This document shows, piece after piece, positions 1,198 to 32,338 of a stretch of 33,879 nucleotides of DNA. The DNA comes from Verrucomicrobiota bacterium (lineage in GTDB: Bacteria; Verrucomicrobiota; Verrucomicrobiia; Chthoniobacterales; UBA10450). The stretch lies in assembly GCA_003218475.1 (NCBI GenBank), contig QHNR01000069.1, positions 1-33,879 of the forward strand, read 5' to 3'. A model generated the notes under the pieces. The model was not told the origin of the DNA and ran no database searches. It saw nothing but the letters and a program-made list of their open reading frames with translations. Position numbers and translations under genes: made by a program. Within the stretch, counting starts at the first letter, position 1. Each line of letters begins with the position of its first letter.

Positions 1198-1352
1198 GTA
1201 GCACAGACATCTTGTTCTGTGGGGCCGGCGGACGTCCGCGCCTGCCGGAGCAATCCGTTCGAAGTCTTATGATCATAATTAGCGAGCATTCTACTCGTCG
1301 ATTCGGCAGGCGAGACGCCCGCCGGTCCCACAGAACAAGATGTCTGTGCTAC
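1198..1352. repeat. Long inverted repeat (26-bp perfect arms) between lhr and the glycosyltransferase
   Basis: Arms at 1198-1223 and 1327-1352 are perfect reverse complements (gtagcacagacatcttg... and its inverse). A further 7-bp pair, ccggcgg at 1225-1231 and ccgccgg at 1319-1325, continues the stem after a one-base gap. The right arm supplies the TAG stop of the glycosyltransferase at 1349-1351. It looks like a MITE or REP-type element. No transposase gene is visible nearby. Confidence 0.85.
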
Positions 1353-2062
1353 GAGCGCGCTCGAATCGCGATCACTTCGCGCAACATCCGCAGGCTGTCA
1401 CGAAAGAAACTAACTTTGCTCCCTTCGGCGTGGTTCCAGCGTACCGGAATTTCCCGAATGCGCAATCCGGCGTGATTGGCGAGAAAAAGCAGCTCAACAT
1501 CGAATGCAAAACCATTCACATGCGCTGCCTCCAGAATCGGCCGACAAACATCGAGCTGAAAGGCCTTGAACCCGCATTGGGTGTCCCAAAATGGCAGGCC
1601 GGTTGCAACGCGCACAAGAAGATTGAAAACACGACCCCCTTGCTCTCGTCGCCAGGGTTGATGGACTCCGATTAAACTGCGGTCCAGAGCGCGCGAACCG
1701 AAAGCAATATCAACTTCGCCGTTTGCAATCGGTTCGATTAGTTTCGGCGTCTCTCCAACTGGCGTGGAAAGGTCGGCATCAAAAAATAGTCCGATCGGTT
1801 CTCGTGCGGCAAGTAATCCGGAGCGAACGGCGGCACCCTTCCCGCGATTTGGAAAATTTTCCAGTAAACGCGTCGCGATCTTAGTCCCGGGGAAAACGTT
1901 CCGCGTGATTTCTGCAGTTCCATCGGTTGATCCATCATTCACCACGATCAATTCGCTGTCTGGGGCGTTGGCAGTGAGATAATTGAGCGTAACGCGGAGC
2001 GTTTCACCAATCCGGGCTTCTTCGTTGAAGCAGGGAATAACGACAGTGAACGGCGGGAGCAT
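1349..2062 (-). CDS. Family 2 glycosyltransferase, dolichyl-phosphate glucosyltransferase-like
   Basis: GT-A fold glycosyltransferase of 237 residues. It is of the kind that moves a sugar from a nucleotide sugar to a lipid phosphate at the inner membrane face (DPM1/ALG5/WcaA-like). Seen: VVIPCFNEE at 7-15, NDGSTDGT at 42-49, RGKGAAVRSG at 73-82, the metal-binding DADLSTP at 95-101, DTQCGFKAF at 160-168 and FDVELLF at 187-193. There is no C-terminal membrane segment, so it resembles the soluble ALG5/DPM1 catalytic domain. The N-terminus fits the family exactly, but no Shine-Dalgarno sequence is visible because a palindrome ends two bases before the ATG. The last residues (IRARS) lead straight into the downstream repeat, which provides the stop. 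Acceptor and sugar cannot be told. Confidence 0.9.
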   Translation of the reverse strand: MLPPFTVVIPCFNEEARIGETLRVTLNYLTANAPDSELIVVNDGSTDGTAEITRNVFPGTKIATRLLENFPNRGKGAAVRSGLLAAREPIGLFFDADLSTPVGETPKLIEPIANGEVDIAFGSRALDRSLIGVHQPWRREQGGRVFNLLVRVATGLPFWDTQCGFKAFQLDVCRPILEAAHVNGFAFDVELLFLANHAGLRIREIPVRWNHAEGSKVSFFRDSLRMLREVIAIRARS

Positions 2063-2063
2063 T

Positions 2064-2141
2064 TTGTAGAGGCGTTTGCGTCAAACGCCGGGAAGCGGAT
2101 TTATTCCTTTCGACAGGCCGCTGACACAGCCGCCTCTACAA
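2064..2141. repeat. Palindromic element upstream of the glycosyltransferase start
   Basis: Outer arms ttgtagaggcg (2064-2074) and cgcctctacaa (2131-2141) are perfect inverse copies. Just inside the left arm is a second hairpin, ggcgtttg / caaacgcc, at 2071-2089. The element fills the whole gap between the asparaginase stop and the glycosyltransferase start, so any promoter or ribosome site for the latter must lie within it or in the upstream gene. Confidence 0.8.
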
Positions 2142-2143
2142 CT

Positions 2144-3223: not shown

Positions 3224-3320
3224 GTGACGCTCCGTTCATTTAGGAGGGCAGTCGTCGATTTTTGATATTCGCACCATAGCGTGACGCCTAGTCAAACTAA
3301 AAGCGACGCGAGGACGCGTA

Positions 3321-3411
3321 CGCACCCCAAAAGCTGCCGCGAAAACAGACCAAACTTCCCATGCATTTCGCACGAAGTGCTTTGGAGTGCGATGCGACGA
3401 CGCATCGCTTT
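3321..3411. repeat. 91-bp dispersed repeat, copy A (inverse of 32364-32454)
   Basis: Copy A reads gcacgaagtgctttggagtg on the plus strand and ends in the hairpin gcgatgcg/cgcatcgc (3390-3408). Its reverse complement aligns without gaps over 91 bp with 32364-32454: both ends are well conserved, the centre is diverged. The motif (c)caaaagct at the left and agtgctttgg at the right make an imperfect inverted pair within the element. It sits in the divergent gap between the asparaginase and mlaE. Confidence 0.8.
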
Positions 3412-6200: not shown

Positions 6201-6221
6201 ATAAGTGAATGGATCAGCGAT

Positions 6222-11476: not shown

Positions 11477-12211
11477 ATGAAAACCAAAGGGTTGGTTTTG
11501 GTGAGCTGTCTGGCTGCAGCGGCGGTAATCGCGTCGCCTGCTTTGGGCGAGATTCAAAAAAAATCGCGGGTCGCATCGGGGGCGAAGGCGCAACGAATGG
11601 CTCCGAAAACCGCACAGGTGATGCCGACGTCGAGACATGGGAATACGTCGTCCGACATAGCCCCGCGCCATTATGCTGGAAACCAACGGTATACGGGTGC
11701 TCGGCAATACGCTGGTAATCGTCAGTTCGTCCGCGGTCGTGAGTACACCGGGACCCGGTATTATGGACGCAGCGGCTACGCCACCAATCGTTACTATGGG
11801 AATGGTTACTACGGGAGTAGTGGCTATTACTACGGGAGTAGTGGCTATTACTACGGCGGCCCAAGCTACTACTATGGTGGCAGCTGGGGTTATCCGTATT
11901 CCGGCTACTATTCATCCTGGCCGTACGCGTCGTATGGGTACTACCCGTATTCATATTACGGGGGTTATCCCTATTCATACTATGGGGGTTATTCGAACGC
12001 CTCTTCGTACTATCAGCCAGGATATGGTTACGACACTACAACGGTTGCAGCGGTGCAGCGCCGCTTGGGTGAACTCGGCTACTATCACGGCGCAGTCGAT
12101 GGCATTATGGGGCCACAAACCCGGGCAGCGATCGCCGCTTTTGAAAGCACGCATGGGATGATCGTGGACGGCATGATTACCACGCGGCTTCTCAACCGAG
12201 TGGGGGTCTAG
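11477..12211 (+). CDS. Secreted Tyr/Gly-rich protein with C-terminal peptidoglycan-binding domain
   Basis: 244-residue exported protein. Seen: signal peptide at 1-24 (KTKGLVLVSCLAAAAVIAS then PALG); a basic linker with repeated Tyr-Ala-Gly-Asn and Arg motifs (about 64-100); a Tyr/Gly/Ser-rich low-complexity region (about 95-185) with tandem SGYYYGS and YSYYGGYP units; and a PG_binding_1 domain at about 190-244 (VQRRLGELGYYHGAVDGIMG, PQTRAAIAAFE). The start has a strong ggaagggg ribosome site. It probably sits at the cell wall; the Tyr-rich part could cross-link or phase-separate, but that is a guess. A paralogue follows immediately, and both have the same kind of terminator. Confidence 0.88.
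   Translation: MKTKGLVLVSCLAAAAVIASPALGEIQKKSRVASGAKAQRMAPKTAQVMPTSRHGNTSSDIAPRHYAGNQRYTGARQYAGNRQFVRGREYTGTRYYGRSGYATNRYYGNGYYGSSGYYYGSSGYYYGGPSYYYGGSWGYPYSGYYSSWPYASYGYYPYSYYGGYPYSYYGGYSNASSYYQPGYGYDTTTVAAVQRRLGELGYYHGAVDGIMGPQTRAAIAAFESTHGMIVDGMITTRLLNRVGV
11807..11848 (+). repeat. Two tandem 21-bp units in the Tyr/Gly-rich region
   Basis: Unit 11807-11827 is repeated exactly at 11828-11848 and begins again at 11849. It encodes YYGSSGY. The units are a multiple of three, so gain or loss keeps the frame. Confidence 0.9.
11948..11995 (+). repeat. Two tandem 24-bp units in the Tyr/Gly-rich region
   Basis: 11948-11971 and 11972-11995 differ at a few third positions and both encode YSYYGGY plus one residue. 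This suggests recent in-frame duplication followed by silent drift. Confidence 0.85.
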
Positions 12212-12366: not shown

Positions 12367-12964
12367 ATGAACAATACAAAGTCTTTACTTTTTTTGAGTT
12401 GCCTCGTGGCGGCAATGCTGACTACTCCAATTCTTACAGCTGCTCCGCGCGGCGGCGGCGGCAGCGGTCATTTTGGTGGGATGGCAGGGCGACCAGGAAT
12501 GGGGGGTGGACAGCGTTTCTCCGGTGGCAACTGGCACGGTGGCAACTGGCACGGTGGCAACTGGCACGGCGGCAATAACTGGCACGGCGGCAATATTCGG
12601 CTTTCCGTGGTGGTGGGGTTGGGGCTGGGGCGGCGGTTGGGGCTGGGGGTATCCCTATTATGGTTATGGTTACCCGTACGGCTACGGCTACTATGGCTCC
12701 GGCGACCCATACGGTTACGGTTATGGCTACGGCTACGGAGGAAACCAATACGGCGGCGACTACGGGTATGGTAATGGATACGGCAATAATGGCACTGGCT
12801 ACGGTCAATACGGCGAGGCCACTCACTCCAAAGTTGCCGAGCTGCAGCGCCGACTCGCACGCGCCGGTTATTACCATGGCTCGGTCGACGGCGTTTTGGG
12901 CCCGCAGACGCGTCGAGCAATCCGCGCGTACGAGCGGGACCACGGGTACGCAAGCAACTACTGA
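12367..12964 (+). pseudogene. Frameshifted paralogue: secreted Gly/Tyr/Trp-rich protein with peptidoglycan-binding domain
   Basis: One gene split over two frames. The N-terminal part starts at ATG 12367 with a signal peptide (NNTKSLLFLSCLVAAMLTTP), then GGGGSGHFGG and four Gly-Asn-Trp-His repeats. At about 12586-12600 the sense moves to the next frame (+1), giving FGFPWWWGWGWGGGWGWG, a Tyr/Gly-rich region and the PG_binding_1 domain (LQRRLARAGYYHGSVDGVLG, PQTRRAIRAYE), ending at 12964. The unshifted frame runs on as Leu/Arg-rich nonsense to 12774. A single extra base near ggcaatattcgg explains it. The binding domain lacks the last ~18 residues seen in the paralogue. It could be a real mutation, a sequencing error or programmed shifting; no known slippery site is seen. 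Confidence 0.75.
12523..12585 (+). repeat. Tandem 15-bp units encoding GGNWH
   Basis: Three exact units (ggtggcaactggcac at 12523, 12538 and 12553) followed by an 18-bp variant with an extra Asn codon. They lie just before the frameshift, but unit lengths are multiples of three, so unit loss or gain cannot itself cause it. Confidence 0.9.
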
Positions 12965-15867: not shown

Positions 15868-15885
15868 TTCTTAAAAGGCGTGAGG

Positions 15886-15942
15886 AGTGAGAAGTGATTA
15901 GTGAGATGCTTACCTCTCACTTCTTGCTGATCACTTCTCACT
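15886..15942. repeat. Inverted repeat built on gtgagaagtgat, between tRNA and ada
   Basis: agtgagaagtgat (15886-15898) and atcacttctcact (15930-15942) are perfect inverse 13-mers. A second pair, agtgaga/tctcact, lies inside. The whole stretch is made of variants of one word. It overlaps the last codons of ada and provides its stop. Confidence 0.85.
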
Positions 15943-18848: not shown

Positions 18849-18888
18849 GTTGGAAATTAGTTAGGCGGCGAGGCGCAGATGCGTTGCC

Positions 18889-18934
18889 AACGCGTTGAGG
18901 ACAACGCGTTCCACCTTCGAGCTTGCAAAGGTGG
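18889..18934. repeat. Short direct and inverted repeats between prpC and the thioesterase gene
   Basis: The self-complementary word aacgcgtt occurs at 18889-18896 and 18903-18910. ccacctt (18911-18917) pairs with aaggtgg (18928-18934) over a 10-nt loop. There is no T-run. The 163-bp gap 18849-19011 holds no gene. Confidence 0.5.
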
Positions 18935-19011
18935 ATTGGCTTCTCCGAAGACGATGCCAAGTCCAATCGCCGAAGGCGCAATATTTTTTGCTCGCGACGC
19001 AAGCGCTCGAC

Positions 19012-20151: not shown

Positions 20152-20194
20152 TTCTTCCGTTCACGTTAACCGTGATACGCGCGCCGACAAATGA

Positions 20195-21055: not shown

Positions 21056-21061
21056 CCCTTT

Positions 21062-21112
21062 TTTGTCATGTCGAGCGAGCCTTTGTCATTCCGAGCGAAG
21101 TCGAGGAATCTC
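21062..21112. repeat. tgtcattccgagcg repeat overlapping the 3' end of prpD
   Basis: A half copy (tttgtcatgtcgagcgagc, from about 21063) is followed by a full copy from 21084 (tgtcattccgagcgaag then tcgaggaatctc). The first 23 bases of the full copy occur inverted at 22672-22694 upstream of prpD. Read on the minus strand it encodes the last 15 or so residues of PrpD and its TGA. Confidence 0.85.
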
Positions 21113-22511
21113 GGTATTTTTCTCTACGCATTTCCATCGCCTTCATCAGTTCATCCACGTCTTTTGCCGCATCGAGCTTCCACACAATCTCAATGATTTT
21201 CCGTGCGCGATCGCTGCCGAGCATCGGATGAACCAAAACATTAAACTTCTCTTCCACCTGCGAATCTTTGAGCGGATTCTTGGCGTGCCCCGTCGGATAA
21301 TCGACACGCCTGGTCAATCGCCGGCCGTCGGCAAGATCAACGTGCACGATGTTTGCCGCTGCGCCGGGATACAACCCGCTCAATTCCTCATTGCGTTCGA
21401 CCTTCACGTTCTCCAAAAACTTCCGAATCTTCGGATCAGTAAAGCGCTCTGGCTGAAATTGCTCCTCGGTCACTTTGCCATCGATCAACGCGATCGCCGT
21501 AATATATGGCAGACTGTGATCGGCGGTCTCCCGCGTCTCCGGTTTCCATTTTTCCAGTTCACTGCCAATGATATCGACGGAGGCATCGTGACTCTCGATG
21601 GTCACCGCGCGCACCCTCGCTGGATCCCCGATTTCTTTCCGCAAAGAAAGCGCCGCTTCAATCGCGCTCTGGCTATGGTATTCAGCCGGCCAGAATTTGA
21701 TGCTCGTGCGCAAGATCATCGATGCCGGCCCATCGCTGGTTTCGGCAAACGGCACCGTAAACTTTTCTCCGACGTTGCCCAACGAAACGCCGAGCTGCTT
21801 TTCAAATCCCATTTGGCCTTCGAAAATCGGGCCCGGACCGGTCATCCCGGCGCGGGCGAGGAGCGCGGAAAAAACTCCGTGCCGCGCTGCGTTCGCGAAC
21901 GCTACCCCTTTCCAATGAGACAGCTCGCCTACGCGCGCCTGCCGCATTGCTGCACTTGCAACTCCGGCGATGTTTACTGCGTGGCGCGTTCTTTTCGGAT
22001 CAAGCTTCATTAATTTCGCGCACGCCAGTGCCGTTGAAAACGCGCCGTAAGTCACATGATCCCAGCCGCGCGCCCGAATGCTCGCCGCATCGCAGAACCG
22101 GCATTGCACTTCATAAGCGAGTGCGATCGCCGTAATCAATTCGCGTCCGCTTGCGCCAACGCTTTCTGCCACGGCCAGCGCCGCCGCAATGTTATCACTG
22201 GGATGCGCCGGTTCCTTCGACAAATAAGTATCGTTATAATCAAAATAGCGGATGCAACAGCCATTCGCGAACGCTGCCCAATCTGGTGGCGCCTTGTGAC
22301 CCGTGCCGATGATTGTCGACCCTTGTTTAGCCGAAAAATCCGAAGCAACTTTCCGCGCGATCGCGCACGGCTCTTCATTCCATGCCCCCAGCGCGCAGCC
22401 TAACGAGTCGATCACACGCCGCTTCACTTCATGCACGACCTGCTTCGAAAGATCCTCAAATCGAAGTGCACACGCGTAATCAGCGAGTTGATGAGCAAGC
22501 GTTTCCTTCAC
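21066..22511 (-). CDS. prpD: MmgE/PrpD family protein, probable 2-methylcitrate dehydratase
   Basis: Dehydrates 2-methylcitrate to 2-methyl-cis-aconitate. 481 residues, family-typical length. Seen: VIDSLGCALGAW at 33-44, the stretch RYFDYNDTYLSKEPAHPSDN at 88-107, conserved in PrpD, AIALAYEVQCRFCD at about 128-141, WDHVTYGAFSTALACAKLMK at 150-169, and WPAEYHSQSAIEAALSLR. The normal protein seems to end near ELMKAMEMRREK. The last residues, YRDSSTSLGMTKARST, are encoded by the dispersed repeat at 21062-21112. First gene of prpD-prpB-prpC; the gap to the divergent acyl-CoA synthetase is mostly another copy of the repeat. Confidence 0.91.
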   Translation of the reverse strand: MKETLAHQLADYACALRFEDLSKQVVHEVKRRVIDSLGCALGAWNEEPCAIARKVASDFSAKQGSTIIGTGHKAPPDWAAFANGCCIRYFDYNDTYLSKEPAHPSDNIAAALAVAESVGASGRELITAIALAYEVQCRFCDAASIRARGWDHVTYGAFSTALACAKLMKLDPKRTRHAVNIAGVASAAMRQARVGELSHWKGVAFANAARHGVFSALLARAGMTGPGPIFEGQMGFEKQLGVSLGNVGEKFTVPFAETSDGPASMILRTSIKFWPAEYHSQSAIEAALSLRKEIGDPARVRAVTIESHDASVDIIGSELEKWKPETRETADHSLPYITAIALIDGKVTEEQFQPERFTDPKIRKFLENVKVERNEELSGLYPGAAANIVHVDLADGRRLTRRVDYPTGHAKNPLKDSQVEEKFNVLVHPMLGSDRARKIIEIVWKLDAAKDVDELMKAMEMRREKYRDSSTSLGMTKARST

Positions 22512-22561
22512 GAAAGCTAACTTTCAATCTGGCGATGAATTGCGTGCGGGCAACCCGCTCC

Positions 22562-22694
22562 TGTCATTCTGAGCGGAGCGCAGCGGAGTCGAAGAATCCC
22601 GCGGAGTTACCGGTGGATTTTGCACCGGGATAGAAAGCCTGGCCTCGCGGACTTGGTCCGCTGCGTTGCAGCCTCGACTTCGCTCGGAATGACA
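22562..22694. repeat. Inverted pair of the tgtcattccgagcg repeat in the prpD/acyl-CoA synthetase divergent gap
   Basis: tgtcattctgagc (22562-22574) and gctcggaatgaca (22682-22694) are inverse copies with one mismatch. Inside are further inverse words around gcggagtcgaag and ccgctgcg. It covers 133 of the 196 bp between the two divergent starts, so both promoters must overlap it or be very short. Same family as 21062-21112. Confidence 0.85.
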
Positions 22695-22707
22695 GCAAAA
22701 TAAACAA

Positions 22708-24675
22708 GTGAGCGAGTTTCAATTCGGCGGCGAATTTGTCTGGCACCCATCGCCGGAGCTGATTGCGCAATCGAATCTTCAGCAATTCATCGATAAACAT
22801 CATCTCGGCTCGTACGAACAGTTGATGCGAAAATCGACTACCGACATCGCTTGGTTTTGGGACACAGTGCTGCGCGATCTCGACATTCAATTTTACAAAA
22901 CTTATTCGCGAATTGTCGATCTAAGCGACGGCAAGCCGTGGCCGAAATGGTGTGTAGGCGGCGAAATGAACATCGTCCACAACATGCTCGATAAATATGT
23001 CGACACGGAGACCGAGAAGAAGCTGGCCATCAAATCCGAAATCGAAGACGGCACGACACGCGAACTCACGTATAAAGAATTGCGCAATCAAGTCGATCGC
23101 ATGGCGAATACTCTTCGCACTCTCGGGCTCGGCAAAGGCGATGCTATCGGCGTGTTCATGCCAATGGTGCCGGAAATCGTAGTGGCGATGCTCGCCATCA
23201 TTAAGATCGGCGCGATCTTTCTGCCGCTCTTCTCCGGCTTCGGCGCAGCAGCAATCGTGTCGCGATTAAACGACGCCGACGCAAAAGCGCTTTTTACGGC
23301 TGCCGGAACGTATCGACGCGGGAAATTTTGCCCGATGAAACCGATCGCCGATGATGCGGCCGCACAAATTCCAACACTGCGGCATCTGGTTGTTCTCAAC
23401 CAAGCCGGGGAATGGCTCATCGAAGATCTCAGCCCTGATGCAGGACCGACGACGAGCTTGCCTGGACCTTTCGATGACGCGCCGACCGAGCGCACGTCAG
23501 CCGAAGATCCGATGATGATCATCTATACGTCGGGCACGACCGGAAAACCAAAAGGCGCGGTGCACACGCATTGCGGCTTCCCGGTCAAATCCGCACAGGA
23601 CATGTGGCACGGACTCGATTTGCACGCCGATGAAACGCTATTTTGGATGACGGACATGGGCTGGATGATGGGGCCGTGGGAAGTTTTCGGAACGTTGCTG
23701 CTAGGTGCGACGATGATGCTTTACGATGGCGCACCCGATTTTCCCGGGCCGGATCGCGTCTGGTCACTAGTGGACCGACATAAAGTGACTGCGCTTGGTG
23801 TCTCGCCAACGTTGGTTCGCGCACTGCGACGACACGGCGACGAGATTGTGCATCAACATAATCTTTCTTCGCTGCGAAAATTCGCTTCGACCGGCGAACC
23901 GTGGAACCCAGAGCCGTGGATGTGGTTGTTTCAAAATGTCGGGCGCGGAAAACTTCCGATCATCAATTACTCCGGCGGCACCGAAATCTCCGGCGGCATT
24001 CTCATGGGCAATGTTCTCACTCCGATGAAACCATGCGCGTTCTCCGGGCCACTTCCCGGAATGGCGGCGGATGTTGTGGATGAAAATGGCAAATCTGTGC
24101 GCGGACAAGTGGGCGAATTGGTGATTCGCGAACCATGGATTGGAATGACGCGCGGGTTTTGGAAGGATCCCGAGCGTTACATTGAAGCGTACTGGTCACG
24201 TTTTCCCGACGTCTGGGTGCACGGCGATTGGGCTGCGATCGACGATGATGGCCTGTGGTACATTCTGGGGCGCTCCGACGACACAATCAAAATTGCTGGC
24301 AAACGAGTCGGGCCTGCTGAAGTAGAGTCGGTTCTGGTTGCTCATCCCGAGGTTAGCGAAGCCGCTGCGATCGGTGTCCCTGATTCAATCAAAGGCGAAT
24401 CGCTGATCTGTTTCTGCGTCTTAAAGAAGGATGTAAATGGCGATCCTGCCCTTGCAGCCGAACTGATACAGAACGTGTCGCGCGATCTCGGCAAAGCGCT
24501 TGCACCCCGCGCAGTGATTTTTGTAGGCGACATACCCAAAACACGGAACGCGAAGGTTATGCGCCGTGTTGTGCGGGCCGCGTATCTGGGCGAAAAACTC
24601 GGCGATACGTCGGCCTTGGAGAACCCTGCGTCGTTGGATGGTATCAAGCGCGCGGCAGTAGCACAGCGTGCTTGA
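22708..24675 (+). CDS. AMP-forming acyl-CoA synthetase (acetyl/propionyl-CoA synthetase-like)
   Basis: Activates a short carboxylic acid to its CoA ester via an acyl-AMP. 655 residues, the length of acetyl-CoA synthetases, with the N-terminal cap domain (about 1-100). Seen: YTSGTTGKPKGAVHTH at 273-288, TGEPWNPEPW, YSGGTEISGG where Acs and PrpE have WWQTETG, and WVHGDWAAIDDDGLWYILGR then SDDTIKIAGKRV. The acylatable lysine is Lys616 in PKTRNAKVMRR (usually TRSGK). Divergence from prpD suggests propionate as substrate. The changed pocket motif suggests it is not a standard Acs; something larger than acetate is possible. Start GTG at 22708, just after the repeat, without a clear ribosome site. 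Confidence 0.85.
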   Translation: MSEFQFGGEFVWHPSPELIAQSNLQQFIDKHHLGSYEQLMRKSTTDIAWFWDTVLRDLDIQFYKTYSRIVDLSDGKPWPKWCVGGEMNIVHNMLDKYVDTETEKKLAIKSEIEDGTTRELTYKELRNQVDRMANTLRTLGLGKGDAIGVFMPMVPEIVVAMLAIIKIGAIFLPLFSGFGAAAIVSRLNDADAKALFTAAGTYRRGKFCPMKPIADDAAAQIPTLRHLVVLNQAGEWLIEDLSPDAGPTTSLPGPFDDAPTERTSAEDPMMIIYTSGTTGKPKGAVHTHCGFPVKSAQDMWHGLDLHADETLFWMTDMGWMMGPWEVFGTLLLGATMMLYDGAPDFPGPDRVWSLVDRHKVTALGVSPTLVRALRRHGDEIVHQHNLSSLRKFASTGEPWNPEPWMWLFQNVGRGKLPIINYSGGTEISGGILMGNVLTPMKPCAFSGPLPGMAADVVDENGKSVRGQVGELVIREPWIGMTRGFWKDPERYIEAYWSRFPDVWVHGDWAAIDDDGLWYILGRSDDTIKIAGKRVGPAEVESVLVAHPEVSEAAAIGVPDSIKGESLICFCVLKKDVNGDPALAAELIQNVSRDLGKALAPRAVIFVGDIPKTRNAKVMRRVVRAAYLGEKLGDTSALENPASLDGIKRAAVAQRA

Positions 24676-24715
24676 TTTGTTTATTCGCCGCGCAGAACTC
24701 TGATCCGGTTCTCCG

Positions 24716-25435
24716 ATGAAACTGACGTTTCTTGGAACGCGCGGCGAGATCGAGGCGCAGACGCGGCGTCATCGCATGCACACATCACTGCTGGTATTAC
24801 ACCGCGCCGCGCGTGTGATGATCGATTGCGGGCTTGATTGGTTGGGAAAACTTAAACGCGTGGATCCGAACGCGATCGTGCTCACGCACGCGCATCCCGA
24901 TCACGCGTGGGGATTGAAACGCGGCGCGCCTTGTCCGGTGTATGCGCCGCAAAAGACGTGGCAAGAATTGCAACTTTACCCGATCAAAGATCGCCACCTG
25001 ATCGAGGAGCGTACGGGCACGAAGATTTGTGGAATCACATTCGAGGCGTTTCCCGTTGAACATTCCATTCGTTCGCCGGCGGTCGGCTATCGCGTGAGCG
25101 CAGGGCGTGCGCGCATTTTCTACGCGCCCGACCTCATCTTCATCGACGATCGCAGTGCAGCGTTGAAAGGCGTGCAAATCTACATTGGCGATGGCGCCAC
25201 TATAACGCGCACATTCATTCGCAGGCGCGGCAAAGCCTTGATCGGTCACTCGCCGGTTCGCACGCAACTGACGTGGTGCCAAAAAGAGGGCGTTCACCGC
25301 GCCATTATCACTCATTGCGGCTCTGAAATCGTCACTGGCGACGAGCGCAAAATTTTCGCCAGCCTGTGCGCCATCGCGGCAGAGCACGGTGTGGACGTGC
25401 GCATCGCTTATGATGGGATGACAGTCGCGTTGTGA
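24716..25435 (+). CDS. MBL-fold metallohydrolase (ribonuclease Z/PhnP-like)
   Basis: 239-residue metallo-beta-lactamase-fold hydrolase. Seen: KLTFLGTRGEIEAQ at the N-terminus, the metal motif THAHPDH at 57-63, a third ligand region EAFPVEHSIRSPAVGYRV, FYAPDLIF with a possible bridging Asp, and a late ITHCG at about 205-209. The simple core without extra domains resembles PhnP/RNase Z-like hydrolases acting on phosphodiesters, but substrate is unknown. ATG at 24716, 40 nt after the acyl-CoA synthetase stop on the same strand. Confidence 0.85.
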   Translation: MKLTFLGTRGEIEAQTRRHRMHTSLLVLHRAARVMIDCGLDWLGKLKRVDPNAIVLTHAHPDHAWGLKRGAPCPVYAPQKTWQELQLYPIKDRHLIEERTGTKICGITFEAFPVEHSIRSPAVGYRVSAGRARIFYAPDLIFIDDRSAALKGVQIYIGDGATITRTFIRRRGKALIGHSPVRTQLTWCQKEGVHRAIITHCGSEIVTGDERKIFASLCAIAAEHGVDVRIAYDGMTVAL

Positions 25436-25458
25436 AGCGGAGGTAGCGTCGGGCGAAA

Positions 25459-25531
25459 GGTAGGGCGCACAGTCCTCTGCGCGCCGTTTGCGGTACAAAG
25501 ATCGGCGCGCACAGGAGTGACGCGCCCTACC
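25459..25531. repeat. Palindromic repeat (ggtagggcg ends), copy 1
   Basis: ggtagggcgc (25459-25468) and gcgccctacc (25522-25531) are perfect inverse ends. Left half tagggcgcacagtcctctgc, right half cggcgcgcacaggagtga. Both halves recur at 30736-30824 in swapped order. It lies in the gap between the MBL-fold gene and the CapA-family gene. Confidence 0.85.
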
Positions 25532-25558
25532 AATTTAATATTTAGCGCTTACCCTTTC

Positions 25559-26659
25559 ATGATGCGTCTTTTTCTCTGCGGCGACGTCATGACCGGGCGC
25601 GGCATTGATCAAGCGCTGTCGCACCCGGTGAATCCGGTTTTATACGAGCCCTATGTGCGCGACGCACGCGAGTATCTCCAGCTTGCGGAGAAAGCGCATG
25701 GCTCAATACCGCTTCCACTGAGTTTCGACTACATCTGGGGCAACGCGTTGGAAGAACTCGATCGGGCTGAAGTCGATTTTCGAATCGTGAATTTGGAAAC
25801 CGCCGTCACCTCGGCTGAAGCGCCATGGCCCGGCAAAGCGATTCATTATCGCATGCACCCCCAGAATATTGGTTGTCTCTCCGCCGCGCATATCAGCGCG
25901 TGCGCTTTGGCGAACAATCACCTGCTGGATTGGGGCTATGACGGATTATCCGAAACGCTGCAAACATTGGACTCCACAGGCATCGCGCGCTCAGGCGCGG
26001 GTAGCGATATCGAGGAAGCTATGCAACCCGCGGTACTGAACGCCACGCGCAAAGGTCGGGTGCTTTTGTTTTCCTTTGGATCAACCACGAGCGGCATCCC
26101 GCAAGACTGGAATGCCACCAGCATTTCTCCTGGAGTAAATTTGTTCGATGCTCTTTCCGAAACCACCGCAGCACAAATTTGCGATCAAATGCGAGCGCAT
26201 CAGCAGTCAGGCGATTTGATCGTCGCGTCAATTCACTGGGGCAGCAACTGGGGATACGAAATCCCGTGTGAACAGGTCGTGTTCGCTCATCGCTTGATTG
26301 AGGAAGGCGTTGCGATTGTGCATGGCCATTCCTCGCACCACGTGAAAGCGATCGAAGTATTTCGAGGCCGACTCATTCTCTACGGCTGCGGCGATTTTCT
26401 CACCGATTACGAAGGCATCAGCGGCTATGAAACGTTCCGTGGCGACCTGGCGCTGATGTATTTCGTGGAAGTTGATTCAGACAGCGGTGAATTGATCGCT
26501 GCACGTTTGGTCCCAATGCAAATGCGGCGATTCCGGCTCGAACGCGCATCGGCTGCCGATTCCAAGTGGCTCTGTGATCTGCTGAACAAACTCGGAGCGA
26601 AATTCAACACGCGCGTGAACCTGCAAAACGACAACAGCTTGGTGCTCGAATGTTCGTGA
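25559..26659 (+). CDS. CapA/PgsA-family protein (metallophosphatase-like fold)
   Basis: 366 residues. CapA-type proteins take part in poly-gamma-glutamate or capsule synthesis and share a calcineurin-like fold. Seen: RLFLCGDVMTGRGID at 3-17 with the metal-site Asp; FRIVNLETAVT with the Asn and Glu; ACALANNHLLDWGYDGL; SIHWGSNWGYEIP; VHGHSSHHVKAIEVFRGRLI; YGCGDFLTDYEG. The ATG at 25559 is preferred: the in-frame extension to 25517 begins inside the repeat. No signal peptide or membrane anchor is seen, so it may be a soluble relative. The TGA stop (26657-26659) belongs to the left end of the downstream palindrome. Confidence 0.88.
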   Translation: MMRLFLCGDVMTGRGIDQALSHPVNPVLYEPYVRDAREYLQLAEKAHGSIPLPLSFDYIWGNALEELDRAEVDFRIVNLETAVTSAEAPWPGKAIHYRMHPQNIGCLSAAHISACALANNHLLDWGYDGLSETLQTLDSTGIARSGAGSDIEEAMQPAVLNATRKGRVLLFSFGSTTSGIPQDWNATSISPGVNLFDALSETTAAQICDQMRAHQQSGDLIVASIHWGSNWGYEIPCEQVVFAHRLIEEGVAIVHGHSSHHVKAIEVFRGRLILYGCGDFLTDYEGISGYETFRGDLALMYFVEVDSDSGELIAARLVPMQMRRFRLERASAADSKWLCDLLNKLGAKFNTRVNLQNDNSLVLECS

Positions 26660-26746
26660 CGCAGGCAATCCTGCCTCATCTCAAGGAGGGGCGGACTGGA
26701 GACCGCCGCTCCTTCCAAGGCTCGCAGACAAGATTGTCTGCGTCAC
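26656..26746. repeat. Palindromic element whose two ends supply the stops of convergent capA-like and otsB genes
   Basis: gtgacgcag (26656-26664) and ctgcgtcac (26738-26746) are perfect inverted ends. Inside are gcaggcaatcctgcc, ggaggggcgg/ccgccgctcc (one mismatch) and gcagacaa-ga-ttgtctgc. Read inward from either side the end contains TGA: at 26657-26659 it stops the capA-like gene, and at 26743-26745 (minus) it stops otsB. Confidence 0.9.
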
Positions 26747-27513
26747 GTCAGAGCAGCAGTCAACGCCCGCAGGAAGCGCTCCACTTCGGCGGGATTCTTG
26801 AGTGAGTAACGCGCTGCGGTGGGCTGCGATTGCTCACTTACCAGAATGCCAATGCCGCGCTGCTCCAGTGCGCGAAATGCATCTTCGTCGGTGCGATCGT
26901 CGCCGATGTAAATCGGACGAATGTTCCCGCGCTCCAAGCCCAGCGCTTCCAACAGCCAGAGAACGGCCTTGCCTTTGTCCCAAGCAACGTCCGGCAGCAG
27001 TTCGTAAACTTTTTTACCGTTGATCCTGCGGAGCTTACGATGTCGCGTCGCCACTTCGCCAACTGCTTGTTCTACCTTGGGCACGTCGTTTTCGTTCACG
27101 TTGCGGTAGTGCGCTGCGATGGAAAAGCGTTTCCGCTCCACACGCGCACCCGAAATTCCATCGAGCGCTGCGTGTAACTCCTTCTCTGCCAGGTCGAGGG
27201 CGGGCAGAAACTCTGTGGCCATTTGCCTGCGCAATCCGTGTGGCCCGGCGATATCAAATCCGTGACTGCCGGCGTACACGATGGCATCAATGTTCATGCG
27301 CCGGCGAACGTCATCGAGGTCACGACCGCTAAGAATGGCAACCGGTGCGCGCGCAGCAAGCTCCCGCAGCTTCTGTCGCATTGAATCGGAAAGCCACGCC
27401 TCCTCTGGCTGACTAACGATCGGCGTCAGCGTGCCATCGTAGTCGAGAAAAACGGCGGCCCGCCCGGCGCCCCCAGCGATTTCCTGAACGTGCTCGAGCG
27501 CTGATGGAATCAT
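26743..27513 (-). CDS. otsB: Trehalose-6-phosphate phosphatase
   Basis: Removes phosphate from trehalose-6-phosphate, the second step of trehalose synthesis. HAD superfamily, 256 residues. Seen: motif I FLDYDGTLTPI at 22-32 (nucleophile Asp24, acid/base Asp26), motif II ILSGRDLDDV at 60-69, GSHGFDI at 82-88, WDKGKAV at 178-184 with the motif III Lys, and motif IV IGDDRTDEDAF at 203-213. Divergent from otsA across a 112-bp gap filled by a repeat. The stop is in the element shared with the convergent capA-like gene. Confidence 0.94.
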   Translation of the reverse strand: MIPSALEHVQEIAGGAGRAAVFLDYDGTLTPIVSQPEEAWLSDSMRQKLRELAARAPVAILSGRDLDDVRRRMNIDAIVYAGSHGFDIAGPHGLRRQMATEFLPALDLAEKELHAALDGISGARVERKRFSIAAHYRNVNENDVPKVEQAVGEVATRHRKLRRINGKKVYELLPDVAWDKGKAVLWLLEALGLERGNIRPIYIGDDRTDEDAFRALEQRGIGILVSEQSQPTAARYSLKNPAEVERFLRALTAALT

Positions 27514-27533
27514 ACTTAACGAAAAGACTTAAA

Positions 27534-27615
27534 AGAGTTACAATGGTTACAAAGTTACAAAAGTAATACAGCCGTGCTTCCATTGTAACCATGTAACTCT
27601 TGTAACCTTGTAACC
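27534..27615. repeat. gttacaa-word inverted repeat in the otsB/otsA divergent gap
   Basis: Left half 27534-27552 (agagttacaatggttacaa, continuing to 27563) is the inverse, with one missing base, of 27583-27600, and the word gtaacc goes on to 27615. The word (g)gttacaa is iterated about three times on the left and inverted about four times on the right. It occupies most of the only DNA between the two divergent starts (27513 and 27626). Confidence 0.85.
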
Positions 27616-27625
27616 GCTTCTTTCG

Positions 27626-29134
27626 ATGAATCGCCTGATAGTCGTCTCCAATCGATTGCCATTCGCGCTGGATTCGACTGGCGAAGATCTTTGGACCGTT
27701 ACACCCGCTGTCGGCGGATTAGTCTCCGCGATCGAGCCGGTGCTGCGCGAGCGCGGCGGAACCTGGATCGGCTGGCCTGGAATTGCAGGTAAAATCCCAG
27801 GAGAACCGCTCGCCGAAGCGACGCGCGATGCCGGTTACCAAGTTGTGCCGGTAGCCCTGAGTGAAAATGAACGGGACGAATTTTACTACGGCTATTCCAA
27901 CGAAGTGATCTGGCCGCTTTTTCACGATTTGCAAAATTTCTGCAAGTTTGAGCCGGCATACTGGCAGGCTTACAAACAAGTTAACGACCGCTACGCGGAT
28001 GCCATCGGCCGTTGCGCTCAGCCGGATGATTTCATCTGGGTACATGACTACCACCTAATGTACGTCGCGCAGGCACTGCGCGAGCAGGACCTGTCCCACA
28101 AACTTTCTGGATTAACGTTTTTCCTGCACATCCCCTTTCCGCCGTACGATATTTTTTCGAAACTTCCGCAACAACAGCGGCTCCTGCACGCGCTACTTCA
28201 GTTCGATTTGCTCGGCTTTCAGACGCGGCGCGATGTGCGCAACTTTATGCAGTGCGTCCGGCGCGTGCTGCTGGACGCAAAAATTGTTCCTCGTCGCGAC
28301 CTGCAATTAATCCGCTTTGAAAAACGCGAAATCCGCGTCGGCCATTTTCCAATCGGGATCGATTTCGACTCATTTGAGAATGGCGCAAGATCCGACACTG
28401 TCGCGAAAAAATCTCAGCGGCTGCGCGACACTTTTCCTGCTTGTCAGTTGCTCCTTGGTTCGGACCGGCTCGATTACAGCAAGGGAATTCCCGAGCGCTT
28501 GCGCGCATTTCGCACCGCCCTGGAACGTCATCCGGACCTGCGCGGCCGCGTGGTCCTGATCCAGGTCGTCGTGCCGAGCCGGGTGGAGATTCCCAGATAT
28601 CACGAGTTCAAGCAACGCATCGACCGGCTGGTTGGCGACATCAACGGTCGCTTCTCGACCAGCACCTGGCTGCCGGTACAATATCACTTTCGGTGCCTCG
28701 ATCGCGACGATCTCCTCGCGCATTATCGCGGGTGCGACATCGCCTTCGTAACACCGCTCAAAGACGGAATGAATCTGGTAGCCAAGGAATATTGCGCGTG
28801 CCGTATCGAGGAGGACGGCGCGCTCATTCTAAGCCAGTTCGCCGGCGCGGCCGAGCAGCTCAAGCCCGGCGCCCTGCTCGTCAATCCTTACGATGTCGAG
28901 CAGATGGCCGATACGATTTTGCAAGCGTTCCGCATGAATCAGGCCGAACGTAGTGCGCGCATGAAGCGCATGAGACGCATCGTGCGTAACGAGAACGTCT
29001 TTTGGTGGGTGGACTCATTTCTCAAAGCCGGAGCGAAACTCGCTGCTCGGTCGTCGCAATTGCGCGACCACCGCATTGGGGGCAAGGAGACGCCCAACGC
29101 CGAACGTCCAACACTCAACGCTCAACCAATCTGA
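27626..29134 (+). CDS. otsA: Trehalose-6-phosphate synthase (GT20)
   Basis: Joins UDP-glucose (or another NDP-glucose) to glucose-6-phosphate. 502 residues, of which about 475 are the normal GT20 enzyme. Seen: [10 protein letters not shown] at 6-15, VGGLVSAI at 29-36, [16 protein letters not shown] at 138-153, FLHIPFPP at 166-173, [19 protein letters not shown] at 277-295 with the phosphate-binding Arg and Lys, and [16 protein letters not shown] at 376-391. The last 15 residues ([15 protein letters not shown]) are encoded by the left half of the repeat at 29091-29173, and the TGA lies in its loop. The ATG has no clear ribosome site. Confidence 0.94.
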
Positions 29135-29173
29135 ATTGGATGTTGGGCGTTGAACGTTGAGCGTTGGATGTTG
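29091..29173. repeat. caacg-word inverted repeat overlapping the 3' end of otsA
   Basis: Left half 29091-29130 iterates (c)caacgc, cgaacgt, ccaacac, tcaacgc. Right half 29135-29173 iterates the inverse (ggatgttg, ggcgttg, aacgttg, agcgttg). The two halves pair imperfectly around a loop that contains the otsA stop (TGA 29132-29134). Confidence 0.85.
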
Positions 29174-29237
29174 AAAGCCCTATTGGGGCAAAACTTCCTG
29201 CGCAGTGAAAGACGATTTTCAATAGAGCACAGATCGG

Positions 29238-30698
29238 ATGGCGATCATTGATAACCTGCAAAAAATCTCAGACACGGTCTGGGAATTGCCTCCGACCTAC
29301 AAGGACGGCATGCGCGTGCCGGCTCGGATCATCGGTACCGAAAAGCTGGTGCGCGAAATGGATGAAGCGGTCTACCAACAGATAAGCAACGTCGCCACTT
29401 TGCCCGGCATTACACGCTACGCGCTCTGCATGCCCGACGGCCACAGCGGTTATGGGTTTCCTATTGGAGGCGTTGCGGCGATGGACGTGCACGAAGGCGG
29501 CGTCATCTCACCCGGCGGTATCGGATTCGATATCAACTGCGGCATGCGCCTCATCACCACGAATCTCACTCTGGATGACGTCAAACCGCGCCTGAAAGAG
29601 ATTGTAGATCTTCTATTCGAACGCGTACCGGCGGGCGTAGGCGGTCATGGCTTTCTGAAATTGTCGCGTGACGATTTTCGAGACTTGGTCGAACAGGGCG
29701 CGCGCTGGTGCGTCGAACACGATTACGGCTGGACGGAGGACCTCGAACTTACCGAGGAAAACGGTTGTATCTCAGGCGCCGACGCATCGAAAATCAGCGA
29801 ACGCGCAATCGACCGCGGCTACAACCAGGTCGGCACACTTGGCAGCGGCAATCATTACCTCGAAGTGCAGGTCGCGCACCCGGAGCACGTGCGCGACAGT
29901 GAGCTCGCTGCAAAATTCGGGATTACGATTCCAAACCAAATCGTGGTGATGTTCCACTGCGGCAGCCGCGGTTTCGGACACCAGGTAGCCACCGATTATC
30001 TCCAAACGTTCTTGAAAGTGATGGAACCGAAATACGGCATCAAGATTTTGGATCGCGAGTTGGCTTGCGCCCCGTTCGAGTCGCCGCAAGGCCGCGATTA
30101 TTTCGCCGCGATGAAGTGCGGGCTGAACATGTCGTTTGCAAATCGACAGGTGATTCTTCACCGCATTCGCGAAGTTTTTTCCGAAGTATTTGGTCGTAGC
30201 GCAGAAGATTTGGAGATGCGCATGGTTTACGATGTCGCGCACAACACCGCCAAGCTGGAAAAACACAAGCTCGACAGCCGGGAGCGTACGCTGCTCGTTC
30301 ACCGCAAAGGCGCGACGCGCGCATTCGGGCCGGGACACGCGGAAGTCGCCGCGCGTTATCGCGAGATCGGCCAGCCAGTGATCATCGGCGGCAGCATGGA
30401 GACTGGGTCGTATCTGCTCGTAGGCACTGCCTCCGGCGCAGAAACTTTCTTCAGCACAGCGCATGGAAGCGGCCGCATAATGAGCCGCACCAAGGCGCGC
30501 AAACAATGGCACGGCAAACAACTCCAGCGCGACCTCGAAACACGTGGCATTTACGTTCGCAGCACTTCATGGGCGGGCCTCGCCGAGGAAGCCGGGCCAG
30601 CTTACAAAGACATCGATGAGGTGATCGCAGCGACTGAGTTCGCGGGAATCAGCAAACCAGTCGCGCGATTCACGCCGATTGGGAATGTGAAAGGCTAA
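29238..30698 (+). CDS. rtcB: RNA-splicing ligase RtcB
   Basis: GTP-dependent ligase joining RNA 2',3'-cyclic phosphate (or 3'-phosphate) to 5'-OH ends; used in RNA repair and tRNA splicing. 486 residues, full length. All active-site residues are visible: Asp98 and Cys101 in GFDINCG, His206 in LGSGNHYLE, His240 in FHCGSRG, His335 in VAHN, and the guanylated His409 in STAHGSGRIMSR. An archease gene lies downstream past a CobW-type GTPase, which supports archease-dependent activity. ATG at 29238; the ribosome site is weak. Confidence 0.96.
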   Translation: MAIIDNLQKISDTVWELPPTYKDGMRVPARIIGTEKLVREMDEAVYQQISNVATLPGITRYALCMPDGHSGYGFPIGGVAAMDVHEGGVISPGGIGFDINCGMRLITTNLTLDDVKPRLKEIVDLLFERVPAGVGGHGFLKLSRDDFRDLVEQGARWCVEHDYGWTEDLELTEENGCISGADASKISERAIDRGYNQVGTLGSGNHYLEVQVAHPEHVRDSELAAKFGITIPNQIVVMFHCGSRGFGHQVATDYLQTFLKVMEPKYGIKILDRELACAPFESPQGRDYFAAMKCGLNMSFANRQVILHRIREVFSEVFGRSAEDLEMRMVYDVAHNTAKLEKHKLDSRERTLLVHRKGATRAFGPGHAEVAARYREIGQPVIIGGSMETGSYLLVGTASGAETFFSTAHGSGRIMSRTKARKQWHGKQLQRDLETRGIYVRSTSWAGLAEEAGPAYKDIDEVIAATEFAGISKPVARFTPIGNVKG

Positions 30699-30735
30699 AT
30701 CAAATGACGAAATCCGAATGATGAATGTCGCGTGG

Positions 30736-30824
30736 CGGCGCGCACGGAGTGACGCGCCCTACCAACGAAAGGCGAACGCACGCGGGGCCGTAGCGGATAG
30801 GGCGGGCAGTCCTCTGAACGCCGT
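30736..30824. repeat. Palindromic repeat family of 25459-25531, copy 2 with halves swapped
   Basis: 30736-30763 matches the right half of copy 1 with one base missing (cggcgcgcac, ggagtgacgcgccctacc). 30798-30824 matches the left half (tagggcgggcagtcctctg). The order is right half then left half. It lies in the 171-bp gap between rtcB and the CobW gene, preceded at 30701-30730 by aatgacgaaatccgaatgat, a word also found at 31761-31877. Confidence 0.8.
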
Positions 30825-30869
30825 CTCGTTTTCTTCGCCATCGGTCATTCGCGCGTCGCCATTCTTGAT

Positions 30870-31766
30870 ATGCAACCGCGCACACCAATCACCTTAATCA
30901 CCGGCCCGCTGGGTAGCGGCAAGACGACATTGCTGCGACACATTCTCGACATCCACCCGGCGAAGATCGCCATTGTCATGAATGAATTCGGCGAGATTGC
31001 GATCGACACGAAAGTCATCGAAGGCAAAAACGTTCGGATCGCTGAGCTCGGCGGCGGCTGTGTTTGTTGTTCGTTGCTCGGCGAATTTGAGGCAGCGATC
31101 GGCGAAATTATCGAGAAAGTCGCGCCCGACAGGATTGTTGTCGAAACGACCGGGCTGGCTGAGCCTGAAGCACTCGTGTTCAACATACAAGAGGCGTTGC
31201 CGCAATGCCGACTCGACGGCGTCATCTCGGTAATCGACGCGGACATGCTCGTTCGTTTCCCCGAGCTCGGTCACACCACACGGCTGCAAATCGAGGGCGC
31301 GGATATTTTGCTCTTGAATAAGATCGATCTTGTTGAGCCAGCGCAGATCGAGCCGCTCGAAACAAAGCTGCACGAGATCAATCCGACTGCGGCGATTGTC
31401 CGCACCGAACGCTGCCGAGTCGATCCTGAACTATTGTTCGGCATCCCGCAGTTGCGGGAGAAAAAAGTCTCACCGCCGAAGCACAAACATCACTTGGAGT
31501 TCGAGTGGTTCACGTTCGGCTCGAAAAAAACTTTTTCGCGGGATTGCTTTGAACGATTTGCAGATAGTCTCCCCGCGGCCGTGATTCGGGCAAAAGGCTT
31601 CGTACGCTTCGCCGATGGCGCGCACCTTTTCAATTTTGTCGCCGGCCGCTGGGACCTGGAACCGTTTGAGTCGGCCGAGACACAGCTGGTTTTCATCGGG
31701 AAAAAAATCGCTGCGGAAAAATCCACGATCCTTGGCGCACTGGCTGAATGCATCGTTGAAAAATGA
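30870..31766 (+). CDS. COG0523/CobW-family metal-handling GTPase
   Basis: G3E-family GTPase of 298 residues. COG0523 proteins deliver metals (zinc, cobalt and others) to client enzymes. Seen: Walker A GPLGSGKTT at 12-20, the Mg-switch region MNEFGEIAID at 37-46, metal motif GCVCC at 63-67 (Cys64, Cys66, Cys67), Walker B VVETTGLAEP at 90-99 and NKID at 150-153. A CobW C-terminal domain follows, with a Lys/His-rich joint KHKHHLEFEWF. It sits between rtcB and archease on the same strand. RtcB is a Mn-dependent enzyme, so a metal-delivery role there is a reasonable but unproven idea. The TGA stop is part of the following repeat. Confidence 0.9.
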   Translation: MQPRTPITLITGPLGSGKTTLLRHILDIHPAKIAIVMNEFGEIAIDTKVIEGKNVRIAELGGGCVCCSLLGEFEAAIGEIIEKVAPDRIVVETTGLAEPEALVFNIQEALPQCRLDGVISVIDADMLVRFPELGHTTRLQIEGADILLLNKIDLVEPAQIEPLETKLHEINPTAAIVRTERCRVDPELLFGIPQLREKKVSPPKHKHHLEFEWFTFGSKKTFSRDCFERFADSLPAAVIRAKGFVRFADGAHLFNFVAGRWDLEPFESAETQLVFIGKKIAAEKSTILGALAECIVEK

Positions 31767-31877
31767 CGAAGGACGAAGGAATGACGAAACCCAAATGACA
31801 AAGCGATCAGCATCGAGTTCGCGTTCTGTTTTCGTCATTTGTCATTAATTCGGCATTCGTCATTAGTTCATTCGTCA
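31761..31877. repeat. aatgacgaa-word inverted repeat between cobW-like gene and archease
   Basis: Left part 31761-31805 iterates aatgacgaa, ggacgaa and aatgaca. Right part 31830-31877 iterates the inverse ttcgtcatt, tgtcatt, attcgtcatt, attcgtcac. It fills the gap between the two genes and contains the TGA of the cobW-like gene at 31764-31766. Confidence 0.85.
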
Positions 31878-31885
31878 CTCCCCTC

Positions 31886-32317
31886 ATGCCTTACCATTAT
31901 CTCGAAGAAATCGGCACTGCAGACATCGCATTCGAAGCGACCGGACGCGACCTGCTGGAATTGTTCATGGCCACGGCCGACGCGACGATGAACGTGATGA
32001 TCGACAATCTGGATGCGATTGAACCGCGCGAAACACGACATATCGAACTGGTTAACGATAAGCTCGACATGTTGCTGTTCGATTTTTTGCAGGAGCTTAT
32101 TTACTTCAAGGATGCGGAGCAGCTTTTGCTGCGAGTGCGCGAGGTGTCGATCGACGAGAAAGATGGAGAATTTTTTCTGAAAGCCAAAACCGCGGGCGAA
32201 CCGCTGGACGCGGCACGGCATCATCAGCGGGCCGACGTTAAGGCGGTCACACTGCATGATTTCTCCGTTGAAAAACAGGACGAGGGATGGAAGGCAAGAG
32301 TGCTTTTGGATATCTGA
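31886..32317 (+). CDS. Archease (RtcB activator)
   Basis: 143 residues. Archease helps RtcB form the covalent His-GMP and turn over. Seen: the N-terminal YHYLEEIGTADIAFEATGRD at 3-22 with the metal-site Asp, LFMATADATMNVMID, the helix LLFDFLQELIYFKDAEQLLL, and a C-terminal VKAVTLHDFSVEKQDEGWKA then RVLLDI, which matches the usual archease ending. The first ATG after the repeat is used; no clear ribosome site. The stop overlaps a perfect palindrome by one base. Confidence 0.93.
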   Translation: MPYHYLEEIGTADIAFEATGRDLLELFMATADATMNVMIDNLDAIEPRETRHIELVNDKLDMLLFDFLQELIYFKDAEQLLLRVREVSIDEKDGEFFLKAKTAGEPLDAARHHQRADVKAVTLHDFSVEKQDEGWKARVLLDI

Positions 32318-32338
32318 ATCGAGCTCTAGAGCTCGATT
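32317..32338. repeat. Perfect 22-bp palindrome at the archease stop
   Basis: The sequence from aatcgagctc to gagctcgatt is self-complementary over 22 bp (centre tctaga). Its first base is the last base of the archease TGA. Without a loop it is a poor terminator but a good cruciform or protein site. The 313 bp from 32318 to 32630 contain no gene; they hold this palindrome, the 91-bp repeat copy B and the inverted repeat at 32543-32621. Confidence 0.85.

Follow-up and report, generated by a model that had tools for sequence, protein, structure and literature searches.

Small dispersed repeats or miniature inverted-repeat transposable elements (MITEs) of cyanobacteria are short, dispersed, intergenic and hairpin-forming. 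Short tandemly repeated repetitive (STRR) sequences are by definition direct repeats only, with no opposed arm. Intergenic regions of Nostoc contain conserved repeats, two of which have a 7-nt period (PMC2408588); STRR is the label that we give to these heptamer repeats in the present analysis. For the repetitive extragenic palindromes (REPs) that begin with GTAG, another source describes a location mostly downstream of genes, an abundance in the verrucomicrobium O. terrae, GTAG termini that often provide TAG stop codons, and a distance of at most 20 bp from 3' ends for most conv-REPs of two species (PMC3733652). We analyzed the palindromic repeats found at gene ends on a 33,879-nt stretch of DNA from a Verrucomicrobiota bacterium (the window), which is the whole of contig 31 in an assembly of 195 contigs (3.16 Mb, 83% complete). 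A preliminary description of the window had noted that eight stop codons lie in or touch palindromes of different families, and had proposed a process that places hairpins exactly at gene ends, perhaps as a genome-wide 3'-end system.

The position of the window's gene ends in palindromes quite probably results from dispersed palindromic repeats, of two or three populations, that occupy the intergenic space of a compact genome, rather than from a 3'-end system. With genes packed this tightly, scattered repeats that have stop signals of their own would be enough to put stops inside palindromes, and no mechanism for placing hairpins has to be invoked when the repeats bring stop codons with them. 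An element landing between genes or just before a stop would be tolerated, since it brings the reading frame to an immediate end, and the last residues of the gene together with its stop would then come from the element; elements at starts would be removed by selection. The finding is mostly ordinary. It sets known REPs and REP doublets forming hairpins (REPINs) apart from a second group, less well described, whose palindromes fill the intergenic DNA of these soil Verrucomicrobia and are also found in other phyla. This group, the T-type class below, is the part worth following.

Placement of the palindromes relative to stop and start codons

Palindromes were scored by a gapped inverted-repeat scan, which found 12 palindromes of score ≥11 in the window; an ungapped scan recovers only 3 of the window's palindromes. 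Genes were called with a home-made coding model that recovered all eight named genes of the window, the open reading frames (ORFs) of which were confirmed and the Pfam names of which hold. The sample comprised 1.07 Mb of the window's own genome, or 1.54 Mb and 1253 genes when two congeners were added. Removal of N runs lowered two palindrome counts from 273 and 159 to 262 and 149, the second being the number of score ≥13 in the 1.07 Mb. The palindromes themselves are far above chance: compared to these 149, three order-3 Markov copies contained 18.3 on average, a value that is if anything too high because the copies probably contained N runs too.

Each palindrome was then placed at random within its own gap, with the tolerated gene overlap varied from 0 to 30 bp. 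For the 1.54 Mb, 111 of 181 palindromes were used (gaps of ≤600 bp), and 9 of 121 stretches were excluded for containing ≥5% N. Stop contact was no higher than random placement predicts: 29 of 120 palindromes touched a stop in the own-genome sample (30.4±3.3 expected) and 26 of 111 in the 1.54 Mb (32.4±3.6 expected), the expected number ranging from 25.8 to 34.5 over overlaps of 0 to 30 bp and never revealing an excess. Starts were touched 19 times in the 1.54 Mb compared to 30.8±3.8 expected, a deficit with p≤0.008 from 10 bp of tolerated overlap upward. In stretches not chosen through matches, stops were touched by 7 of 50 palindromes (7.7 to 12.9 expected) and starts by 6 (7.4 to 12.5 expected). 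Convergent gaps were not richer in palindromes, the number per gap of ≥40 bp being 0.128 for convergent, 0.160 for tandem and 0.115 for divergent gaps. After subtraction of the element, gaps had a median length of 66 bp (n=92), compared to 81 bp for element-free gaps (n=769). These data indicate that stops are not enriched in palindromes, which tend to avoid starts. The preliminary description had itself set the distance to stops, measured against random intergenic insertion, as the sequence half of its own check; the distances are as random insertion predicts, and both the placing process and the genome-wide 3'-end system are unsupported where tested. Its reading of the hairpins as terminators found no more support. 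Intrinsic terminators resemble these elements in having a hairpin after the stop codon, but terminator-like sites (a stem and then a T-run) showed no excess, with 29 found in positions 14001-33879 compared to 27.5±6.1 in shuffles.

Stop codons apparently supplied by the elements

We distinguished R-type elements (inverted pairs led by GTAG, with near variants; probable REPs or REPINs) and T-type elements (palindromes with arms of tandem units) as the main populations, and also D-type elements (TGTCAT..CGAGCG units). All three are present in the window, and different families had been reported correctly. Six of the eight stops lie inside scored palindromes and the archease stop touches one; the prpD stop touches only a repeat unit. 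The TAG of the glycosyltransferase gene (1349-1351, - strand) is the TAG of the terminal GTAG of the R-type element at 1198..1352, and the TGA codons of capA (26657-26659) and otsB (26743-26745) both lie in the ends of the R-like element at 26655..26747. The archease stop (32315-32317) has its final A in common with the palindrome at 32317-32338, which scores only when a zero loop is allowed. No local palindrome was scored at the prpD stop, even with a relaxed threshold; the D-type unit found there (21066) has an exact inverted partner 1565 nt away, at 22672-22694. D-type repeats resembling TGTCATTCTGAGCGAAGCGAAGAATC, located at 22561-22695 of the window and at other loci, often form inverted pairs, and 13 were found in gaps of the placement sample.

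Elements appear to supply stop codons to genes. Stops in or within 5 bp of T-type elements are TGA in 8 of 9 cases, compared to 534 of 1186 (45%) for all genes (p=0.009), and stops at R-type elements are TAG in 8 of 16 cases, compared to 315 of 1186 (27%; p=0.037; when the window is left out, 7 of 13, p=0.03). GTAG contains TAG, and T-type units such as AATGACGAA or GTGAGAA contain TGA.

We compared the syntenic block in congeners (13 at capA-otsB and 18 at otsB-otsA, with handles beginning with G). In congeners with an element-free capA-otsB gap the two stops are back to back (G029) or overlap (G022); the window's own gap is filled by an element. By reading, a TTGTAG...CTACAA element provides TAG for both genes in G007, G014 and G024, while in G002 otsB alone ends in an element and in G015 the convergent gap carries a AATGACGAA palindrome. 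Homology of otsA stops at residue 475-494 in congeners (matches uncut by the locus end); OtsA of the window has 502 residues, its tail being read from the palindrome at 29109..29173, and OtsA of G015 reaches 494, with a related palindrome at that site. The GTTACAA element at otsB-otsA was scored in 9 of the 18 congeners, was readable in 4 more and was absent in 5. At rtcB-cobW and cobW-archease the unit family differs by species or there is none, and these states partly follow clades. The sister pairs G020/G030 and G007/G014 both differ at rtcB-cobW (G014 by reading); of G020 and G030, only one has the element. These comparisons suggest that genomes of the genus acquire and lose T-type elements at a pace comparable to that of species divergence.

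Architecture and spread of the T-type elements

T-type arms consist of degenerate tandem units of 7-10 bp, in two opposed arms around a loop, and the loops vary among the copies displayed. The class rule was an arm periodicity of z≥4.5 at a lag of ≥7. In the window, the elements starting at 31762, 29109 and 15886 pass at lag 7 and that at 27529 passes at lag 9. Unit families of the own genome include AACGCTC, CGTTGAAG, AATGACG, GTTACAA, CACGAAT, CACAGAT, GTGAGAA, ATTTAGCG and ATGGAGT, and further copies of the AACGCTC palindrome at 29109..29173 were found elsewhere in this genome. The rule admits 24 T-type elements, 17 of them from tandem gaps and 7 from divergent ones, and convergent gaps also hold T-like elements (L049 at 16999; G015 capA-otsB). 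Because they occur in divergent and tandem gaps as well, T-type elements are not tied to 3' ends. The rule files T-like elements of lower z as O (L100 4967, L108 13672, L105 18333 and L042 17602).

We also examined whether the two arms at the otsB-otsA T site co-evolve. No such signal was seen among 10 species, the complementarity being 15.25 in cis and 14.82 in trans (p=0.27). This comparison used 10 of 19 sequences, of which G021 and G022 had weak hairpins only; excluded beforehand were G007 and G019 (near-duplicates), G018 (which carries a REP), G011 (whose partial palindrome is a different one), and G001, G002, G003, G017 and G032 (no palindrome).

The distribution of units was both local and wide. 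The sequence TCGTCATTCGTCATT is mainly genus-specific, with 29 exact copies in the own genome, 40 in G025, 8 in G022, 6 in G017 and 0 to 3 in 34 others. Outside the genus, we used 80 RtcB neighbourhoods (541 kb), 13 of them from the AV series of Verrucomicrobia; the closest named relatives of the window's RtcB are metagenome-assembled genomes (MAGs) of soil Verrucomicrobia from this series (AV78, AV34 and others). The T rule also picked out palindromes in neighbourhoods of Cyanobacteria (L185, L186, L188, L194 and L196), an acidobacterium (L181) and a Syntrophobacteraceae MAG (L231). The sequence CACAGATNNACACAGAT, with the CACAGAT unit, is present in 9 of 34 genomes searched. Five cyanobacteria carry 138 to 259 copies each and three others none; the anammox planctomycete Jettenia and an acidobacterium have 14 apiece, and two further genomes a single copy. 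Among Verrucomicrobiota, 18 of 145 genomes contain the sequence; a reversed-pattern control gave 0 in every genome. Part of the copies are full palindromes, and part, including some from cyanobacteria, are single-armed. As a separate observation, the RtcB of L178, a MAG contig labelled Acidobacteria, is 84% identical to that of the window, and that of the verrucomicrobial MAG AV42 is 83% identical; the L178 similarity would represent a binning error or a recent transfer.

Other elements are nested in T-type loops, mostly as judged by reading. D-type elements occupy CGTTGAAG loops at L063 and L098 (own genome) and L260 (G022), and R-type elements occupy loops at G018 otsB-otsA, G024 cobW-archease, L252 (G022) and L288 (G017).

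The nearest known relative of the T-type elements that we found is the set of conserved intergenic repeats of Nostoc. The Nostoc repeats ttgtcagttgtcagttgtca and attgcgaattgcgaattg described there (PMC2408588) are similar in having 7-nt tandem units, an intergenic location and many copies. T-type elements differ from STRR-like heptamers by the opposed arms around a loop, by having units of 8-10 as well, and by their occurrence in other phyla. The literature searches yielded no name for the T-type elements, and the one with the literal T-unit sequences returned no paper, which is weak evidence of absence as figures and supplements were outside its reach. T-type elements fall outside the definition of STRRs, which have no opposed arm, and they share with cyanobacterial MITEs the short, dispersed, intergenic and hairpin-forming character.

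We put forward as a tentative possibility that T-type elements are small dispersed elements forming a class that has no name yet and extends over several phyla. What would define such a class is its architecture and not its sequence: degenerate tandem units of 7-10 bp make up two arms facing each other, and one genome contains many unit families that can stand in for one another, with at least one unit (CACAGAT) being shared by Verrucomicrobia, Cyanobacteria, Acidobacteria and Planctomycetes. Its members would be gained and lost as species diverge, and REPINs and other palindromes would insert into their loops, as if single-stranded loop DNA were a preferred target, although nested elements were sought in loops only, so that no loop-versus-arm rate or loop preference follows. 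If T-type elements are one mobile class, their mover could be sought in strain pairs.

R-type elements and Y1 transposases

R-type elements are dispersed and multi-copy, mostly as inverted pairs in extragenic space. GTAG stands at the foot of the palindromes at 1198-1352, 2064-2141, 25459-25531 and 32543-32621, and GTGACG takes its place at 26655-26747. The preliminary description had called for a search for a REP-type transposase. The own genome yielded 11 matches to PF01797 (Y1 transposase), of which 10 loci were inspected and 1 match had no locus, and at one of these 10 loci (G000:C67) the Y1 gene, which scores 25 bits against a cut-off of 23, has TGTAGCGTCCGCTGTCCTCAGCG on both sides, a sequence of the same family as the window's element at 32543-32621. 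Judged by sequence, R-type elements are probably REPs and REPINs copied by RAYT-like transposases (REP-associated tyrosine transposases; Y1 enzymes of the HUH group).

The R-type part of the finding is already known, as it fits published GTAG REPs. Likenesses to GTAG REPs and REPINs with their RAYT (TnpA_REP) include the GTAG foot, the inverted pairs, the multiple extragenic copies, the REPIN-flanked Y1 gene and the TAG stops given to ORFs. Differences are that only one R-type family is linked here to a transposase gene, the RAYT subfamily of which is putative, and that GGGGAG or GTGACG replaces GTAG in some R-type elements. A literature search with the literal D-type and R-type core sequences gave only papers on other subjects, figures and supplements being outside its reach.

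Y1 sequences were also observed in other settings. At L011 (G000:C157), the ORF 3-2963 is recG-like (986 aa) and continues uninterrupted across a Y1 transposase piece (residues 497-593), with a GGGGAGCACAGGC REP pair just ahead of that piece; the best DEAD match (284-364) lies on one side of the insert and the C-terminal helicase match (770-876) on the other. This is a predicted RAYT-like in-frame insert in a repair helicase gene. The loci L004, L009 and L007 hold more Y1 genes adjoined by short palindromic stretches, which are not of the window's families.

Origin of the palindromes at gene ends

A number of points weigh against dispersed repeats as the whole explanation of the gene ends. The start deficit is not significant at zero overlap (19 compared to 22.8 expected, p=0.10). 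In tandem gaps, palindromes are nearer the stop than the start by 46 to 29, with 36.6 expected (53 to 30 in the own sample), a lean that comes mostly from unclassified palindromes (19 to 6); start avoidance could account for it, and a mild 3' preference is also compatible. The density of R-type elements per gap of ≥40 bp is 0.088 in convergent (n=11, one of them a misfiled T-like element), 0.053 in tandem and 0.030 in divergent gaps (n=5). The window is a local high, with a stop touched in 6 of 29 genes compared to 22 of 1224 elsewhere (p=2e-5), a post hoc value because the window was picked for that feature. Without the window, the TGA stops at T-type elements number 5 of 6 (p=0.07). The placement null is partly circular, since the element helps define the gap. 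The gene caller is home-made (79% coding) with uncertain start positions, and the class rules are rough: of 41 elements filed as R in gaps of ≤600 bp at least one is filed wrongly (the T-like L049 16999), and some REPs were misfiled as O (L043 4711 and 13877).

The stop-side lean in tandem gaps and the denser R-type elements in convergent gaps would also be expected if the hairpins were functional mRNA 3' ends, either terminators or stabilizers, maintained by selection in several sequence families, and such roles are hypothesized for REPs in the literature (PMC3733652). We consider this quite unlikely, given that there is no stop excess, that terminator-like sites are at the level of shuffles, that 7 of the 24 T-type elements are in divergent gaps, that the cis arms at otsB-otsA are no more complementary than cross-species arms, and that an element is present or absent between the sister species G020 and G030 at rtcB-cobW. 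The position could alternatively reflect target choice, with a RAYT or related HUH transposase directed to gene ends, for example to a pre-existing GTAG at TAG stops. The frequency of TAG at R-touched stops and the convergent stops of G007, G014 and G024, both the TAG of TTGTAG, fit with such targeting, but the TAG excess arises because the element itself brings GTAG. R-type elements touched stops 14 times with 16.5±2.2 expected, and neither of the two congeners with an element-free capA-otsB gap (G022 and G029) has GTAG at both of its ends, making this targeting very unlikely. Of the earlier suggestion that the palindromes are targets of a REP-type transposase, the part that stands is that some look like products of a RAYT system; placement at gene ends does not.

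For T-type elements only, a mutational origin may be envisioned, in which slippage and hairpin template switching create tandem-unit palindromes afresh in unconstrained gaps. Many unrelated units with one architecture, variable loops and gaps of all orientations speak for it. However, one unit recurs at many loci per genome, as with the exact TCGTCATTCGTCATT copies, and across phyla, as with CACAGAT and its empty reversed control, and independent origin would not readily produce such recurrence; this origin therefore seems rather unlikely. The palindromes directly 3' of stops are imperfect and some have GTT/AAC motifs, as in attC-like integron sites or cassettes. Most units are without such a motif and the gene block is present in congeners, so that this explanation deserves almost no credence. 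The search for the TIGR02249 integrase gave no match over cut-off in the own genome at its 83% completeness, and attC-like sites were rejected. Dispersed repeats that carry their own stop codons are the explanation that we retain.

Features of the window

The elements of the window are compiled in Table 1.

Table 1. Repeat elements of the window and their position relative to genes.
Position	Type	Sequence	Relation to genes	Score or periodicity	Remarks
1198..1352	R, long inverted pair (REPIN- or bacterial interspersed mosaic element (BIME)-like)	GTAG-led		score 39	partial copies at other loci
2064..2141	R	TTGTAGAGG...CCTCTACAA	between two - strand genes	score 12.5	
15886..15942	T	AGTGAGA-unit arms	contains ada TGA (15931-15933, - strand)	period 7, z 5.2	
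21066..21106	D units	TGTCAT..CGAGCG...	at prpD stop		no local palindrome
22561..22695	D, inverted pair	TGTCATTCTGAGCGG...CTTCGCTCGGAATGACA	divergent gap before prpD	score 13	
25459..25531	R	GGTAGGGCGC...GCGCCCTACC	upstream of capA-like gene	score 18	
26655..26747	R-like	GTGACGCAGGCAATCC...TGCGTCAC	fills capA/otsB convergent gap		gapped scan
27529..27605	T	GTTACAA palindrome	between start codons of otsB and otsA	lag 9, z≥4.5	
29109..29173	T	AACGCTC palindrome	otsA TGA (29132-29134) in its loop	lag 7, z≥4.5	
30699..30869	T-unit remnants around R piece	AATGACGAA remnants around CCCTACC...GGGCGGGC	rtcB-cobW gap		read by eye; no palindrome scored
31762..31864	T	AATGACGAA palindrome	contains cobW TGA (31764-31766)	lag 7, z 6.2	
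32317..32338	perfect 22-nt palindrome	AATCGAGCTCTAGAGCTCGATT	directly at archease stop		degenerate in G027
32543..32621	R, REPIN	TGCTGTAGAGTGCGCTGTCCTCAGCG...			family also flanks Y1 gene at G000:C67

An Rfam scan of the window gave a tRNA at 15794-15867 as its sole match. The segments 3318-3411 and 32364-32457 are inverted 94-nt copies, 79% complementary and 29 kb apart, with related matches in several congeners. Two predicted genes contain direct repeats in tandem, spaced 15-21 nt apart, at 11791-11877 and 12522-12738.

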